Virus record (IMG/VR): IMGVR_UViG_3300042894_001118
Location: 1-21,129 of that record
Reading direction: 5' to 3' (one strand)
Source: a virus
Length of the DNA: 21,129 bases
The notes beneath the pieces were generated by a model, which saw only the letters and a list, made by a program, of their open reading frames with translations, was not told where the DNA came from and did no database searches. Within the stretch, counting starts at the first letter, position 1. The number at the start of each line of letters is the position of its first letter. The position numbers were made by a program, and so were the translations under genes. Below are positions 1,429-14,360 of this stretch, in pieces.

Positions 1429-1893
1429 CTAATTTTCAGTAGATTTGTTCTTTTTGAACTTCCATTCTTGAATGACTCGCTGGGTCATTTTGTGTAAGTC
1501 CATTTTGTAATTAAAGTTTATTTTTACACCATGTTGTAATCTTTTTGTTTTGTAATTCAAAGATTTAACAGTATCAACAAGCCCAGCATTGAGCAAATTA
1601 ATTACCGCATTGTTAAAAACCTTGTCTTTTATTGGCTCTAATCCTTCGTTTAATCTCAACTCGTCTAAACGCTCTTGTACTTCAAAATAAACTTGATTAC
1701 ACTCTTCATCACCATCTAAAGTATGTAATGCCATGAGCATACGCACGATTTCTTTTTCAAGTTCTGATGAGCCAAATTCAGCCTTGGTGCACATTTCATC
1801 AAGCAATTCTTTAGTTTCAATTTCATCTAAAATTAAATCATGTTTTTCTGCTAAGCCCTTTTGTGTTTCTTTTATCCGTTCTTCAATAGTCAT
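1429..1893 (-). CDS. Hypothetical early protein (154 aa)
   Basis: Not recognised. The ATG at 1891-1893 follows an AAGGATAT ribosome site. Residues 1-90 are rich in E, K and L and look helical. A segment around residues 92-125 (FNNAVINLLNAGLVDTV, then a basic KTKRLQHG strand) has the shape of a winged-helix recognition helix plus wing. It is followed by a basic C-terminal tail ending KFKKNKSTEN. No catalytic motif or membrane segment is visible. Its position after the Cro-like and 89-aa wHTH genes suggests a regulatory or replication accessory role; this is inference only. Confidence 0.7.
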   Translation of the reverse strand: MTIEERIKETQKGLAEKHDLILDEIETKELLDEMCTKAEFGSSELEKEIVRMLMALHTLDGDEECNQVYFEVQERLDELRLNEGLEPIKDKVFNNAVINLLNAGLVDTVKSLNYKTKRLQHGVKINFNYKMDLHKMTQRVIQEWKFKKNKSTEN

Positions 1894-1907: not shown

Positions 1908-2177
1908 TTAAGATGCAATTAATCTATATGCAATTGATGTATCAGCGCCATCTGTATCTTCTTCTAGCTCTTTAATAAAACCCTTATCAACCAGTTGGCG
2001 TAATATTTCTGTGATTTCAGGTACATCTAATCCAGCAAATCTCGCAAGTTTATATTTAAATACTCTTACATTCATGTCTTCATCGCACATATCAGCCATT
2101 CCAATTAACACAAGTTTTTCATGTGTTGTCACTTTATCTGGATGCTGCCTTAATGCCCAACTCAACGCTTTAATCAT
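1908..2177 (-). CDS. Small winged-helix (HTH_36-like) DNA-binding protein
   Basis: An 89-aa protein whose start overlaps the upstream cro-like stop by ATGA, with an AAAGGA site, so translation is probably coupled. Residues 18-35 (THEKLVLIGMADMCDED) match the opening of helix-turn-helix domains at the N-terminus of many phage replication proteins. Residues about 40-68 give the recognition helix and wing (KYKLARFAGLDVPEITEIL, then LVDKGFIKELEED). It occupies the cII position of a lambdoid early operon but does not resemble CII in sequence. It may be a replication accessory or a transcription regulator. Confidence 0.75.
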   Translation of the reverse strand: MIKALSWALRQHPDKVTTHEKLVLIGMADMCDEDMNVRVFKYKLARFAGLDVPEITEILRQLVDKGFIKELEEDTDGADTSIAYRLIAS

Positions 2178-2422
2178 TTGCTAATTCCTTTATTTTTATT
2201 AATACCTTGTTTGGTTTTTTCGCTATGATGCGTATATCTGTCATATAAATCTTGAATATTTGCTTTTAATACACCCCCTGATAGTTTTTCAATTTCCAGT
2301 TGTTGCATATAGGTTATATAACCTTTCTTTTTCCAATATGTAAAATTTTGTCGGCCAATTCCTAGTAACTGGCAAACCTTATATTCACTCTTGAAATGAT
2401 GTAAAACTTCATCTATAGTCAT
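2174..2422 (-). CDS. cro: Cro-like transcriptional repressor
   Basis: An 82-aa protein. Residues 5-50 match the short Cro fold of the P22/lambda group: DEVLHHFKSEYKVCQLLGI, then a recognition helix RQNFTYWKKKGYI, then QQLEIEKLSGGVLKAN. The C-terminus is a basic tail. A perfect AAGGAGGT site lies 6 bases before the ATG. It is the first gene of the leftward early operon, and its promoter overlaps a palindromic operator, so it probably autoregulates and also represses the divergent recombination promoter. No CI-type repressor with a peptidase domain is found next to it. The family call is based on pattern similarity. Confidence 0.8.
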   Translation of the reverse strand: MTIDEVLHHFKSEYKVCQLLGIGRQNFTYWKKKGYITYMQQLEIEKLSGGVLKANIQDLYDRYTHHSEKTKQGINKNKGISK

Positions 2423-2443
2423 TCTGGTACCTCCTTTTTGCTC

Positions 2444-2472
2444 ACTATATTATATTTAATATGCCTCGTCAA
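2444..2472 (-). promoter_or_regulatory. Leftward early promoter for the cro-replication operon
   Basis: The minus strand has -35 TTGACG (2467-2472) and -10 TATAGT (2444-2449) with a 17-bp spacer, one mismatch each from the sigma70 consensus. The predicted start, near 2437, leaves a very short leader that begins about at the AAGGAGGT site of cro. Confidence 0.75.
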
Positions 2473-2486
2473 ATAGAGCTTGACGA
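2466..2486. promoter_or_regulatory. Shared palindromic operator between divergent early promoters
   Basis: TCGTCAA and TTGACGA form a perfect 7-bp inverted repeat with a 7-bp spacer. Each arm contains the -35 box of one promoter, so one bound dimer would cover both. The size fits a lambda-type repressor/Cro site. Binding by the neighbouring Cro-like protein is inferred. Confidence 0.7.
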
Positions 2487-2508
2487 ATAAGCCTGCCTTA
2501 GATATAAT
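2480..2508 (+). promoter_or_regulatory. Rightward early promoter for the recombination operon
   Basis: It has -35 TTGACG (2480-2485) and a perfect -10 TATAAT (2503-2508) with an optimal 17-bp spacer, so it should be strong. The leader to the exonuclease ATG would be about 28 bases. It is the mirror image of the leftward promoter around position 2476. Confidence 0.8.
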
Positions 2509-2542: not shown

Positions 2543-3331
2543 ATGAAATTTGAAAATGGCATACATGCAATTACCAACGAGCAATATCACAGCTCAGAAG
2601 GTATCTCTCGAAGCGATTTAATGCGTTTCAAAAAATCCCCAATGCATTTCAAGCACAAACAATCCCTTAAGGAAACGCCAGCACTTATTATTGGTGAATT
2701 AGTTCATACATTAGTACTTGAGCCACATTTCTTTAACGATAGATATATTGTTAATCCTGGTTTTGACAGACGCACTAAAGAAGGCAAAGCTGAGCACGCA
2801 GAATTTATGATTGCCAGCGAAGGTAAGCGTATTGTAGAAGCAAACCATTTTACCGAAGCCAGCAAAATGGCCGACGCTGTTAACAATCATGAGTTTAAAC
2901 AATACCTACAACAAGGCTATCGTGTCGAAAATTCTATCTTTTTTCGACATAAACTGACTGGATTGCAATGCAAAGTACGTCCTGACGCATGGTTGGGTGA
3001 TGTCATTATTGACCTTAAAACCACTGCTGACGCGTCATTTAGAAGCTTTCAATCAAGTGCTTATAACTACGGCTATTACTTACAAGCAGGCATGATTAAA
3101 CGCGCCTTAGAGAGCCTTAACAAACCTATTAAAAACTTTATATTTGTTGCTGTCGAGAAAGAAACTCCATATGCCATTGGTATTTATAAACTCGATGATG
3201 AAGCTTTAGAATATGGCGCAAATGAATTTGATACGCTTATGATTGAATTACAAAAATATATCGAACGCAACGAATTCCCTGATTATGGAATACAAACTTT
3301 ATCAATACCTGCTTGGTTGAAAACGGAGTAA
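2543..3331 (+). CDS. RecE-like PDDEXK exonuclease (DUF3799-type)
   Basis: A 262-aa protein, probably the 5'-3' dsDNA exonuclease that generates single strands for the annealase encoded next. Near the N-terminus, ISRSDLMRFKKSPMHFK and then GELVHTLVLEP (His55) match the putative exodeoxyribonuclease 8 / YqaJ-like group. The nuclease core is KVRPDAW with Asp148, then IDLKT with Asp157 and Lys159 (the D-x-K motif), followed by YYLQAGM with Gln181. All key residues are present. The length fits phage single-domain enzymes and is far shorter than E. coli RecE. A GGAG site lies 8 bases before the ATG. First gene of the rightward operon; its stop is 5 bases before bet. Confidence 0.88.
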   Translation: MKFENGIHAITNEQYHSSEGISRSDLMRFKKSPMHFKHKQSLKETPALIIGELVHTLVLEPHFFNDRYIVNPGFDRRTKEGKAEHAEFMIASEGKRIVEANHFTEASKMADAVNNHEFKQYLQQGYRVENSIFFRHKLTGLQCKVRPDAWLGDVIIDLKTTADASFRSFQSSAYNYGYYLQAGMIKRALESLNKPIKNFIFVAVEKETPYAIGIYKLDDEALEYGANEFDTLMIELQKYIERNEFPDYGIQTLSIPAWLKTE

Positions 3332-3336
3332 TTAAA

Positions 3337-4188
3337 ATGACGAATGCTATGACAACTGTAAATGATGTATTAATGATGTGGGAAAACAAAGAGCAACTAC
3401 AAGAAATTAGAAAACTATTTGCGCCAAAATTGAGTGATAGCGAATTTCAGTTCTTCGTTGGACTAGGTAAAGCATCAAGATTAAATCCATTCACCCGTGA
3501 AATATGGGCCGTAAAATATCAAGAAAGCCAACCCGCTCAAGTATTTATTGGTCGTGATGGTTATAGAAAAGCTGCTCAAGCGCATCCAGAATATGACTTC
3601 CATCAAGCTGATGCTGTTTATGAAAACGATGAATATGAAGTTGTTAATGGTGTAGTTCATCATAAATATAAATTAAGTAACCGTGGCAAACTGGTTGGCG
3701 CATACTGCGTGGCTAAACGCCATAAATCATCGCGTCCAATTTATGTATTTTGTGAATTAAGCGAATACTCAACTGGCAGAAGTTTATGGAATACACAAAC
3801 AGGAAAGCCAGCAACGATGATTAAAAAAGTTGCTGAAAGCCAATGTCTTCGCGCATGCTTCCAAGATTTGTTAGGTGGCACTTATGCTGAAGAAGAGGAG
3901 TGGGAAGAAAAAGGCGAAAAAAAAGCGGAATCGCCTCGTCCCGCCTTTCAACAAAATGATGAATTAAAGGACCTATTTACGCCCACGGTTATTGATGAGC
4001 CATTTGAACACCCAAAAGCTACTGATGAACAATTAAAAGAAATTGAAGGGTTGTTTACAGAGCTTGCTTTGACAGATGACCGAATCACAAAAGCTTTGAT
4101 TACGCATGAAGTTAGCTGTCTCGAAGAACTTACTGAAACCAAAGCAAAAATACTTATCTACCAACTCAATAAACTAAAACAGCAATAA
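3337..4188 (+). CDS. bet: Recombination protein Bet/RecT-type ssDNA annealase
   Basis: A 283-aa single-strand annealing protein, partner of the upstream exonuclease. The N-terminal 180 residues match phage Bet: FFVGLGKASRLNPFTREIWA, then VFIGRDGYRKAAQAHPEYD, then GAYCVAKR, and KVAESQCLRACFQDLLGGTYAEEE, which is the typical end of the core. The C-terminal 90 residues are acidic and variable. I chose the ATG at 3337 because GGAG lies 8 bases upstream and overlaps the exonuclease stop. An in-frame TTG at 3313 would add eight residues within the upstream gene and has no ribosome site. Together with the exonuclease and SSB it forms a Red-type system for concatemer formation and repair. Confidence 0.92.
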   Translation: MTNAMTTVNDVLMMWENKEQLQEIRKLFAPKLSDSEFQFFVGLGKASRLNPFTREIWAVKYQESQPAQVFIGRDGYRKAAQAHPEYDFHQADAVYENDEYEVVNGVVHHKYKLSNRGKLVGAYCVAKRHKSSRPIYVFCELSEYSTGRSLWNTQTGKPATMIKKVAESQCLRACFQDLLGGTYAEEEEWEEKGEKKAESPRPAFQQNDELKDLFTPTVIDEPFEHPKATDEQLKEIEGLFTELALTDDRITKALITHEVSCLEELTETKAKILIYQLNKLKQQ

Positions 4189-4203: not shown

Positions 4204-4365
4204 GTGTTATTTTCTAAAAGACTAAAGCGCTATCTTATCAATCGTAAGTTAAAAAAAATGAATAAAGATTTAGCAAGCGCAAAAGACATTAAAAGTTATT
4301 TAGCTGTCGAAAATAAAAGATTAGATTTAATAATGAAACTTAACAAAATAGGCGCAAAAAAATGA
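4204..4365 (+). CDS. Small basic protein (53 aa), GTG start, between bet and ssb
   Basis: Not recognised. A strong AAGGAGGG site lies 9 bases before GTG 4204, and the stop overlaps the ssb start as ATGA, so ssb translation is probably coupled to it. The peptide begins MLFSKRLKRYLINRKLKK and continues with alternating charged and leucine residues to end KIGAKK. It is very basic and likely one or two helices, perhaps a short coiled coil. A weaker internal ATG at 4258 would give 36 residues. Context suggests a nucleic-acid-binding or recombination-accessory role, without direct proof. Confidence 0.6.
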   Translation: MLFSKRLKRYLINRKLKKMNKDLASAKDIKSYLAVENKRLDLIMKLNKIGAKK

Positions 4366-4766
4366 TAAATAAAGCAATTATACTTGGTCGAATTGGTTTT
4401 ATTGAAACAAAAAATCACAATGGGATGCAATACACTAAGTTATCAGTAGCTACCAATGAAAAATGGAAAGACAAGAATGGTGAAAAACAAGAAAAAACCA
4501 TTTGGCACAATGTCTGCGGGTTCAATAAATTGGCAGAGATTATGGCTCGCTACGCTAAGAAAGGCGATATTGTTTATGTCGAAGGCAAAATATCTCAAAA
4601 CAAATATAAAGATGAAAGTGGCGTTGAAAAAATTAGTTCCAGCATTACGGCTTCCGAATTTAAAATATTAAATAACACACCACAAGAAGAAGCTGTACAA
4701 ACAAATAAAAATAGTGGTAATGTAAAATCATCAGGGCCTCTATTGGATGACGATATCCCCTGGTGA
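4362..4766 (+). CDS. ssb: Single-stranded DNA-binding protein
   Basis: A 134-aa SSB. Residues 1-105 form the OB fold, with the family landmarks NKAIILGRIG, YTKLSVATNEKW, EKTIWHNVCGFNKLAEI, ARYAKKGDIVYVEGKI and ITASEFKIL. A short linker leads to an acidic tip LLDDDIPW at residues 127-134. The usual last residue is Phe; here it is Trp. The tail normally recruits host repair and replication proteins, so this SSB probably retains such contacts. It is the last gene of the rightward recombination operon and overlaps the preceding small gene by ATGA. It should coat strands made by the exonuclease and those at forks. Confidence 0.93.
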   Translation: MINKAIILGRIGFIETKNHNGMQYTKLSVATNEKWKDKNGEKQEKTIWHNVCGFNKLAEIMARYAKKGDIVYVEGKISQNKYKDESGVEKISSSITASEFKILNNTPQEEAVQTNKNSGNVKSSGPLLDDDIPW

Positions 4767-11759: not shown

Positions 11760-14360
11760 TTATGCTACAGTGATTGCGCCCTGCGGCCCTGTAATGACAG
11801 TCCACTGGGTGTCAGCCGTGATACACAATAACTCTATACTATCAAACTGCTGTGTACTTTGTAGATAACCTGTTGCGCCAATTGTTGTAGCACTTGACCC
11901 AAAGAAAATTTCTTGCCCAGCATTTTGCGCAATCTTCCATCCACCAGCACCTTTGCCCGCTATTGACAATGTTGTGCCTAAGGCCGCAGTTGTAGGCAAA
12001 GTCAAGGTGACTAAAGCAGGATTATTTGTGATATATCCATTGTTTGCAGCCATTGTTTGACTTGTGCCAGTGACCTCAGTCCAAGTATAGCCACCGCCGC
12101 CGCCGCTGATAGTAATTGTGCCAGCACCATTTGTTACTGTAATTCCTAATGTTCCTGTAATCGTTGCAGGAACAGGTGTCGCTCCTGTAGACCCGATTAG
12201 CACCTGACCATTGGTCATGGAGCTTGTCCAGGATGGAACGCCAGACGCATTAGTCACCAAAGTTGCGCTATTAGCGGTTGCTAATCCACCCACAGTATTG
12301 GTTGCAGAACTGTAAAGTAATTGATTTGCAGTCGTTGTTGATGGGTATGTTGCCGTTGTGAATGTATAAATCGAGCCATTGCTTTGTGCTAATGTCCCGT
12401 TAGCTCCAACACTGCTTGCGCCTGTACCGCCTCTAGTTACGCCTAACTGCCCAGACCATCCCAAAGTTAATGATACAGCTTGTAACAATGATGTAGCTGG
12501 GGTTCCACCCAAAGTCAAAGTGACGTTGGTGTCGTCAACTTTAGTCATAGCTGAAGGTGTTGGCAACTGAGAAGTTGTTGCTAAAGTGCCACTTGTTGGG
12601 AAAGTTACTGTTGTAATCCCTGTCATAGTGAATGTTGAAGCAAAAGCTCCAGATGTCGTTAAGCTTCCGCCTAAGGTAATTGTGCTTGTGCCATTGTTGA
12701 CGCCTGTGCCGCCATAAGCAGAACCTATAATGCCGCCATTCCATGTGCCTGAGCCAATTGTGCCAACACTTGTAATATTACCTTGAACTGCTGTGGGTAA
12801 TGTAGAGCTGATACTTGGAACGCCGCCAGCACTAGTAATCAATACGCCGTTATTTGCAGTTGCTAACCCAGAAACCGCTGAGCCAGTTGTGGCATAATAA
12901 GCTAATTCATTTGCCGTGCCTGGATTGACCACTCCACCAGCCGAGCTTGAAATTTGAATTGTTCCAGCACCAGGAGTAACAGTGATTGAACCAGCGCCTG
13001 TAATACTGCCCACGACAGGGGTGGCGCCAGTTGAGCCAATTACTAACTGACCATTAGTCATGCTTGCAGTATACCCTGGAACACCAGTTGAGCTTGTCAC
13101 CAGTGTTGCGCTATTAGCTGTAGTAATTTCACCAATAACATTGTTAGCAGAACTATAAAGAATCTGATTAATCGTAGTCGTTGCAGGATAAGTTGCAGTA
13201 GTTGCTACCCAGTTAGTGCCATCAGCCCTTAAAATCGTACCAGTTGCGGTGGCAGTTGCAGGATAAGTTGCAGTAGTCCAAGAATATTTTGTACCGTCAG
13301 ATTGAGCTAATTGCCCAGCTGTTCCTAATGTACTTGTGTTAGTACCGCCCCTGGAAATTGGCAATAAACCAGACCAGCCCATGGTAATTGACGTGGCTTG
13401 CAAAAGAGCAGTTAAAGGTGTGCCGCCAAGTGTTATAGTTACGTTAGAATCAGATGTACTTGTCAAAGCCGCTGGCGTAAATGGAGCACCAAAGCTTGCC
13501 CATGACAATTGCCCAGCTCCGTTTGTCACTAATGCTTGGTTAGCTGTGCCATCTAACTGAGGCCAATTTAAACCATCAAGAACAATACTACCTACAGTAT
13601 TAGGTGTAATGACAATGTTGCCTCCCACGTCAGTGGAAGTGATTGAGTTGCCATTAATATTGATATTGTCAACTTGCAGCTCAGATAGGTCGTAAAGCTT
13701 ATCGGAAGAGTCAAGAGAAGCATTTGTACTTTGCACCCAATAAGTTCCATCGCTTCTTAAAATCTTATTGGCAGGGCTTGCAGAAGGCAATAAGGTAATG
13801 TCAATTTGTAGTTGCTGAAATGTAATTGGGCTTGTACCAATAACAAAAGGCCCAGGTGAATTCTCTTGAAATACTAAACTTGCGTTTTGAGTCCCTTGGG
13901 TAATTGCAACAACGCCTAGATAAACAATTTCGGCGGGCTCATTATAATCTGTTGCTCTTGTCAAAACCCAATTTGTTGTTAAATTACCTATATTGCTTAC
14001 AACATAAATACCATTTTCAAATGTATTGACTTGATTTTTAATCAATACACGGTCATTTAACGCCAAAGTTATGCCGTCAATCTGCAATCCAACTTGTGCG
14101 CCAGCATTTGTAAGAGTCGCCCCTACGCCTGCAACACCATTCGCATATGTTGCAGTTAATGCCGCAGTTGTTGCAACACGGCAACTTGTGTAAGTTGTAA
14201 AACCTTGAGCAATTAAAATATATTGCAAAATGTCAGCGAGAATATATTTAAATGTTGTCCCGTTGATAGATTGTGTTGTATTTAACGGATTAGTAGCGGG
14301 TATTTCAATGTCGCCGTTCGGCAACCCACCATTAACAAGCTGACTAATAGGAATCGACAT
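11760..14360 (-). CDS. Large repeat-rich tail fibre (866 aa)
   Basis: The start has GGTGAG four bases upstream. Residues about 55-190 match a widespread phage fibre domain (CRVATTAALTATYANGVAG, LNDRVLIKNQ, ENGIYVVSN, WVLTRATDYNEPAEI). Residues 298-752 are long beta-repeat modules containing two diverged copies of a unit of about 150-175 residues, with SVGTIGSGTWNGG, SAYGGTGVNNG and VTFPTSGTLATTSQLP between them, all typical fibre shaft motifs. Residues 758-866 (YTWTEVTGTSQTMAANNGYI, GGWKIAQNAGQEI, DSIELLCITADTQWTVI) match a recurrent C-terminal fibre domain. It is probably a trimeric host-binding fibre. No autocleaving chaperone domain or catalytic motif is visible. Confidence 0.82.
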   Translation of the reverse strand: MSIPISQLVNGGLPNGDIEIPATNPLNTTQSINGTTFKYILADILQYILIAQGFTTYTSCRVATTAALTATYANGVAGVGATLTNAGAQVGLQIDGITLALNDRVLIKNQVNTFENGIYVVSNIGNLTTNWVLTRATDYNEPAEIVYLGVVAITQGTQNASLVFQENSPGPFVIGTSPITFQQLQIDITLLPSASPANKILRSDGTYWVQSTNASLDSSDKLYDLSELQVDNININGNSITSTDVGGNIVITPNTVGSIVLDGLNWPQLDGTANQALVTNGAGQLSWASFGAPFTPAALTSTSDSNVTITLGGTPLTALLQATSITMGWSGLLPISRGGTNTSTLGTAGQLAQSDGTKYSWTTATYPATATATGTILRADGTNWVATTATYPATTTINQILYSSANNVIGEITTANSATLVTSSTGVPGYTASMTNGQLVIGSTGATPVVGSITGAGSITVTPGAGTIQISSSAGGVVNPGTANELAYYATTGSAVSGLATANNGVLITSAGGVPSISSTLPTAVQGNITSVGTIGSGTWNGGIIGSAYGGTGVNNGTSTITLGGSLTTSGAFASTFTMTGITTVTFPTSGTLATTSQLPTPSAMTKVDDTNVTLTLGGTPATSLLQAVSLTLGWSGQLGVTRGGTGASSVGANGTLAQSNGSIYTFTTATYPSTTTANQLLYSSATNTVGGLATANSATLVTNASGVPSWTSSMTNGQVLIGSTGATPVPATITGTLGITVTNGAGTITISGGGGGYTWTEVTGTSQTMAANNGYITNNPALVTLTLPTTAALGTTLSIAGKGAGGWKIAQNAGQEIFFGSSATTIGATGYLQSTQQFDSIELLCITADTQWTVITGPQGAITVA
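12105..12554 (-). repeat. Second copy of internal fibre repeat (residues 603-752)
   Basis: Matches residues 298-475 in order: NVTLTLGGTP, LGWSGQLGVTRGGTG, TTATYPSTTTANQLLYSS, ATANSATLVT, SMTNGQVLIGSTGATPV and GAGTITIS. The copies differ at many positions, so the duplication is not recent. Confidence 0.75.
12936..13469 (-). repeat. First copy of internal fibre repeat (residues 298-475)
   Basis: Contains NVTITLGGTP, MGWSGLLPISRGGTN, two TATYPAT segments, NQILYSS, TTANSATLVT, SMTNGQLVIGSTGATPV and GAGTIQIS. It is longer than the other copy because the TATYPAT segment is itself doubled. Confidence 0.75.

Follow-up and report, generated by a model that had tools for sequence, protein, structure and literature searches.

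A divergent promoter pair with a single candidate Cro operator between the cro-like gene and the recombination operon of a viral contig

Gene content of the locus

The window analysed here is the entire 21,129-bp IMG/VR contig IMGVR_UViG_3300042894_001118, in which an intergenic region of 120 bp separates a cro-like gene from a divergently oriented exonuclease gene. Leftward from this region lie, in order, the genes of an 82-aa Cro-like protein (2174-2422, minus strand), with the ribosome-binding site GGAGG at 2430-2434 (minus strand), of an 89-aa winged-helix protein similar to the N-termini of replication initiators (1908-2177, minus strand; phrog_270 E 1e-5 and Pfam MarR E 4.5e-5, the latter just under the cut-off) and of a 154-aa protein with no family match (1429-1893, minus strand), at whose equivalent position the relatives G003 and G005 have ORFs of 150-151 aa. 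In G003 the leftward operon continues with a replication initiator and a thymidine kinase.

Rightward, the order is a RecE/exonuclease VIII-like PD-(D/E)XK nuclease (2543-3331, plus strand; DUF3799 E 3e-38, phrog_412 E 6e-74), a RecT-like annealing protein (3313-4188, plus strand; RecT E 6e-32), whose more probable start codon is the ATG at 3337, and a single-strand DNA-binding protein, SSB (4362-4766, plus strand; SSB E 1e-25). The late genes, recognised by DNA-ejection and tail-fibre matches, are on the minus strand and convergent with the recombination operon. These gene identities support the initial annotation, which had described a divergent, presumably early, region joining a leftward Cro-like gene and a recombination operon in about 120 bp. 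Among the 84,980 bacterial genomes searched, no relative of the exonuclease was found.

We also observed a hairpin, AAGCCTC...GAGGCTT, with a plus-strand T-run after it (1343-1370). The hairpin lies within the leftward operon and is oriented against it; it is kept in L003, L007, L008 and L009, and the same pattern was not found in L004-L006. The exonuclease leader TAACGAGTAGCGGAGTTCAT (2521-2540) is strongly conserved across the near group defined below, L006 included, to a degree that exceeds the needs of a ribosome-binding site. The leader TAACGAGTAGNGGAGTTCA was tried as a marker for further near relatives and rejected, having retrieved only the known members and L335, where it lies at an unrelated gene start.

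Identity of the Cro-like protein

The 82-aa protein alone matched the P22_Cro family (PF14549) with E 8e-4 and 19.5 bits, against a cut-off of 30.2 bits, and phrog_409 with E 6e-10. A profile built from 27 relatives matched P22 Cro (1rzs) with E 1.7e-9 and N15 Cro (2hin) with E 2.7e-8, and 25 of these 27 relatives matched PF14549 at E 0.01 or better. The top PDB matches of the predicted structure (pLDDT 84.5) were N15, Xfaso and P22 Cro, with a probability of 0.99-1.00 and TM values of 0.53-0.63 by query length and of 0.65-0.79 by target; the corresponding Foldseek E-values (0.025-0.29) are weak, which is unsurprising at this protein length. Judged by profile and by predicted fold, which is the helical Cro fold of the family, the protein falls into the P22/N15 Cro family, and the Cro-like identity first given to the leftward gene is upheld.

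Promoter pair and central repeat

The intergenic region contains a 21-bp inverted repeat, TCGTCAA-ATAGAGC-TTGACGA (2466-2486), which is proposed as the Cro operator and has a probable 17-bp operator core, GTCAAATAGAGCTTGAC (2468-2484). The hexamer TTGACG occurs in it on both strands. On the plus strand it forms the -35 box (2480-2485) of a predicted rightward promoter of the recombination operon, with the -10 box TATAAT at 2503-2508 (plus strand) and a predicted start at about 2515; on the minus strand it forms the -35 box (2467-2472) of a predicted leftward promoter of the cro and replication genes, with the -10 box TATAGT at 2444-2449 (minus strand) and a predicted start at about 2437. The two -35 hexamers are separated by 7 bp and the predicted starts by about 78 bp. 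Every coordinate initially given for this palindrome and its two TTGACG boxes proved correct; the sequence also confirms the 17-bp spacers on both sides, the position of each -10 box, starting 27 bases from the centre at 2476, and the overlap of one central repeat with both -35 boxes.

The rightward promoter matches the consensus at 11 of 12 bases and the leftward one at 10 of 12. In random sequence of the length and dinucleotide content of the window, 0.005 divergent pairs with at least 21/24 matches and a -35 gap of 0-15 bp are expected, and in random 120-mers built from the dinucleotides of the intergenic region itself a pair of the same strength has P ~5e-5. No second pair in the window scores 10 or more on both strands. 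The exact 7-7-7 inverted repeat is, by itself, ordinary (2.2 expected per window, 3 found), and it cannot be counted independently of the two -35 boxes, because TTGAC on both strands yields most of the palindrome.

The candidate 17-bp palindromic core is present beside the cro-like gene, and it is conserved. Written as GTCAA(A)-N5-(T/C)TTGAC, it fits the operators of the P22/N15 Cro family, which are 16-18 bp long. The operator of PY54 Cro is 16 bp (PMC4488713).

The window holds one exact copy of the operator-like repeat and each near relative holds one clear site. As a second operator copy we considered the 3-mismatch site TCGGCAACCCACCATTAACAA (14318-14338), which was rejected, lying just inside the start of a gene coding for 866 aa; in G002 and G004 the sites with one mismatch were also rejected, their sequence being nearly that of the 14318-14338 site. 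From their sequences, this site and its counterparts in G002 and G004 are probably a matter of coding conservation.

Conservation in the near group

We considered as the near group seven related contigs, window included, and aligned their intergenic regions. Invariant positions were 13 of 14 in the arms of the repeat against 6 of 32 in the two spacers, with 3 of 7 in the repeat centre; the rightward -10 box was invariant at 6 of 6 positions and the leftward one at 4 of 6. The outer arm bases were TCG on the left in 7/7 contigs and CGA on the right in 6/7, and a repeat with arms TYGTCAA/TTGACRA was found once per near-relative genome. The symmetric arrangement, for which a search of related phages had been suggested, is kept in the seven contigs of the near group. 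L006 departs from the others with TTGACAA on one side and with a weaker leftward -10 box, and its top score belongs to an alternative leftward promoter at a gap of -7, the +7 pair being also present with that weaker -10. Six of the seven contigs, among them the window, are closely related (Cro 84-100% identical), so the conservation is in part a result of recent descent.

One member of the group, L007 (G005), has a Cro identical to that of the window and another centre sequence, ATATAGT, so it is the arms and not the centre that go with the window's Cro. The mosaic structure of L007 points to recombination between cro and the promoter region.

Promoter geometries in the wider family

A RecT search returned 76 loci, in many of which a Cro-like gene and the recombination operon diverge, and the best promoter pairs were determined for 23 lineages. 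The pairs clearly above chance usually had spacers of exactly 17 bp on both strands, with -35 gaps of +7 in the window group, +4 in L012, -10 in L010, -13 in L095, -14 in L013, L065, L066, L068 and L080, and -36 in L050, L052, L061 and L073. At P 0.05, eight lineages were not above chance (L011, L060, L062, L067, L077, L082, L083 and L107). Close promoter pairs are hence common, not universal, among lineages in which Cro faces recombination genes. What is new here is that further phages of this type have close pairs at other separations; the symmetric +7 geometry is not the only one. Two candidates were rejected, namely an apparent +7 pair in L071, whose leftward -10 box lies within the cro ribosome-binding region, and the Moraxella phage Mcat13, which has an exo relative and no divergent cro before it.

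Precisely, in the lineages with a gap of -36 (L050, L052, L061 and L073) the pairs are nested within 36 bp upstream of cro, each -35 box adjoining the -10 box of the opposite promoter, with 17-bp spacers on both strands and predicted starts about 35 bp apart, as in TTGACA...TGTCAA of L061. In the five lineages with a gap of -14 the facing -35 boxes are 2 bp apart, as in TTGACATATGTCAA of L080.

We also counted palindrome cores in eight sister lineages whose Cro has a related recognition helix of the N-W or R-W type. The core TTG-N8-CAA, corresponding to two facing -35 boxes, was present in 7 of the 8, and CAA-N4-TTG, a candidate operator distinct from the -35 pair, in 6 of the 8. In shuffled sequences CAA-N4-TTG was never found in more than 4 lineages in 2000 trials, and the top motif, whatever its kind, mostly scored 4 or 5, with 6 reached six times and 7 once in 60 trials.

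Taken over the whole family, it is conceivable, though doubtful, that in phages without a detectable S24 CI the Cro and recombination promoters are repeatedly close and roughly mirror-symmetric around one operator, with alternative geometries (+4/+7, about -10 to -14, and -36) that differ by steps of some two helical turns; evolution would then have kept a symmetric, equal-strength coupling under one Cro dimer, and helical phase would limit the spacings.

Proposed mechanism

The reading that we favour, with a probability of roughly 0.6, is that a dimer of the Cro-like protein on the central repeat turns down both early operons, its own gene included. Upon infection, host sigma-70 polymerase would fire the two strong back-to-back promoters, leftward transcription giving the cro-like and replication genes and rightward transcription the exonuclease, RecT and SSB. 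The P22/N15-type Cro would then accumulate and a dimer would bind the central repeat, probably at the 17-bp core. As the two half-sites of the repeat would double as the two -35 boxes, one bound dimer would hide both and lower both operons, cro among them. The outcome would be a negatively autoregulated limiter under one operator, and the polymerases of the two promoters may also partly interfere with each other.

This single-operator repression is favoured by the invariance of the arms relative to the spacers and by a promoter pair far above chance, and L006, with its TTGACAA and poorer leftward -10 box, speaks against it. A host regulator or another phage regulator could bind the repeat instead of the Cro-like protein.

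An alternative is a region of plain divergent promoters, with a palindrome that is a by-product of two TTGAC boxes and a Cro that works at another place or on different targets. At the frequency given above an exact 7-7-7 repeat is no rarity, 5 of the 7 arm bases belong to the -35 consensus, and promoter function explains much of the arm conservation, because the arm bases GTCAA/TTGAC are that consensus. As read from the alignment, the operator signal is solely in the outer TCG/CGA and in the preference for TTGACG over TTGACA, which point to an additional binding function; the near invariance of these outer bases, together with the CAA-N4-TTG palindrome that sister lineages have separately from the -35 pair, makes the by-product explanation unlikely. 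Moreover, Cro-like repressors commonly have their operators next to the gene that encodes them.

Promoter spacing and mutual exclusion

We scanned viral contigs for strong back-to-back promoter pairs (L121-L329 and L339-L369) and collapsed homologues to at least 119 families. Among the matches listed, a -35 gap of 7 was the commonest (12/119 families) and gaps of 0-2 were nearly absent (2/119). The geometry of the window is therefore recurrent, gap 7 being the commonest among the viral pairs sampled. A 10.5-bp periodicity of the -35 gap in the viral contigs, among the matches listed, had a Rayleigh p of 2.6e-6, which became 0.02 once homologous sites were collapsed, and in bacterial contigs it was not significant (p 0.07); we consider this rhythm of promoter gaps as a hint only.

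These spacings bear on a second alternative, that of the initial annotation, in which only one polymerase at a time could occupy the pair and polymerase competition, with one repressor, would make a compact two-state switch. The -35 hexamers are indeed just 7 bp apart, with predicted starts about 78 bp apart, and in the sister lineages with truly overlapping pairs (gaps of -10 to -14, and -36) exclusion is almost certain. However, the hexamer gap of lambda PR/PRM is 12 bp, just 5 bp wider than that of the window, and there polymerase at PR interferes with PRM without strict exclusion, both complexes being tolerated. The prevalence of gap 7 and the rarity of gaps 0-2, among the matches listed, argue in the same direction, as promoters seem to need some room, and nothing suggests that promoter collision is the goal of the layout. 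A two-state reading is further opposed by the lack of a detected antagonist repressor. Documented cases of strict exclusion are much tighter pairs, with a shared -10 box and starts 10-23 bp apart (PMC12825309), and the overlapping Pc/Pr promoters of pLS20, which act as a polymerase switch (PMC4207663). For the window we regard mutual exclusion as improbable.

Absence of detectable lysogeny functions

An S24-type CI (Peptidase_S24) was found in 0 of 39 contigs, window included, most of which are incomplete. In a search limited to tyrosine integrases (PF00589), none was found in the window and the near group, and one in the 39 contigs overall, in the distant L011/G009. G003, which at 34.4 kb looks nearly complete, has neither an S24 CI nor a tyrosine integrase. 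The sole other regulator seen was an HTH_3 protein of 73-78 aa, which adjoins the small terminase gene, far from the operator, and could be a late regulator; it is found at 24353-24505 in G003 and at 13230-13382 in G005, in both directly before the small terminase gene, and also in G006 and G007.

As to a lambda-type switch, neither an S24 CI, nor several operators, nor a tyrosine integrase was found in the window and its near group. Judged by S24-type CI and tyrosine integrases, the two types that the search covered, this tailed phage is probably strictly lytic and the region probably does not serve as a lysogeny switch. The initial annotation had called the region a simpler switch than the lambda oR/oL pair, which presumes a decision circuit, and this description is not sustained, no S24-type partner CI having been detected in the 39 contigs. 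A third alternative, a temperate immunity region in which PL and PR of a lysogeny switch are merged and whose CI is off the contig or of an unrecognised type, is very improbable: the P22/N15 Cro family is one typically found in temperate phages, the distant exo relative has an integrase and relatives carry the small HTH_3 protein beside the terminase, but this protein has merely 73-78 aa and is distant from the operator, an S24 CI was detected in none of the 39 contigs searched, and a tyrosine integrase in none of the near group, G003 included.

Comparison with known systems

The early regulatory region described here is very small, consisting of 120 bp with two predicted promoters, one candidate operator and one 82-aa repressor. 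Its natural variants at several spacings offer a clean system in which to ask when back-to-back polymerases exclude each other, and also which role Cro has in a phage without a detected opposing CI.

Lambda PR/PRM with OR (L330, NC_001416) is alike in having back-to-back sigma-70 promoters at a similar distance, with a Cro-family repressor on operators that overlap both. It differs in its three operators per region, in the CI/Cro competition and in the orientation of cro, which faces cI; here there is one candidate operator, cro faces the recombination operon and an S24 CI was not detected. The immB regions of N15, PY54 and phiKO2 (structures 2HIN and 6ON0) have a Cro of the same fold family as the window protein, and PY54 Cro, which binds one 16-bp palindromic operator, is an experimental precedent (PMC4488713). 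In these phages cI lies opposite, and Cro represses cI and apparently not itself (PMC4488713), whereas in the window the single candidate site overlaps the promoter of cro itself as well as the opposite one. P22 Cro (1RZS, PF14549) is related through the 27-relative profile (E 1.7e-9); P22 differs in having c2 in its immunity region, and on its own the window protein remains below the Pfam cut-off.

The bidirectional promoters of E. coli (PMC12825309) are alike in their symmetry-based divergent transcription, but they share a -10 box and their starts are 10-23 bp apart, whereas the window has separate promoters with two distinct -10 boxes and predicted starts about 78 bp apart; the lineages with a gap of -36 (L050, L052, L061 and L073), with predicted starts about 35 bp apart, are nearer to them. 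In pLS20 Pc/Pr (PMC4207663), too, one regulator acts at the overlap of divergent promoters, with overlapping cores, very unequal strength and looping; the promoters described here are instead of near-equal predicted strength and back to back, and a second operator was not seen.

Already known are the P22/N15-type Cro, divergent early promoters and, in PY54, a Cro with one operator (PMC4488713). The combination found in the window differs from both lambda and N15, in that, with no CI detected, cro faces the recombination operon across a single central site.
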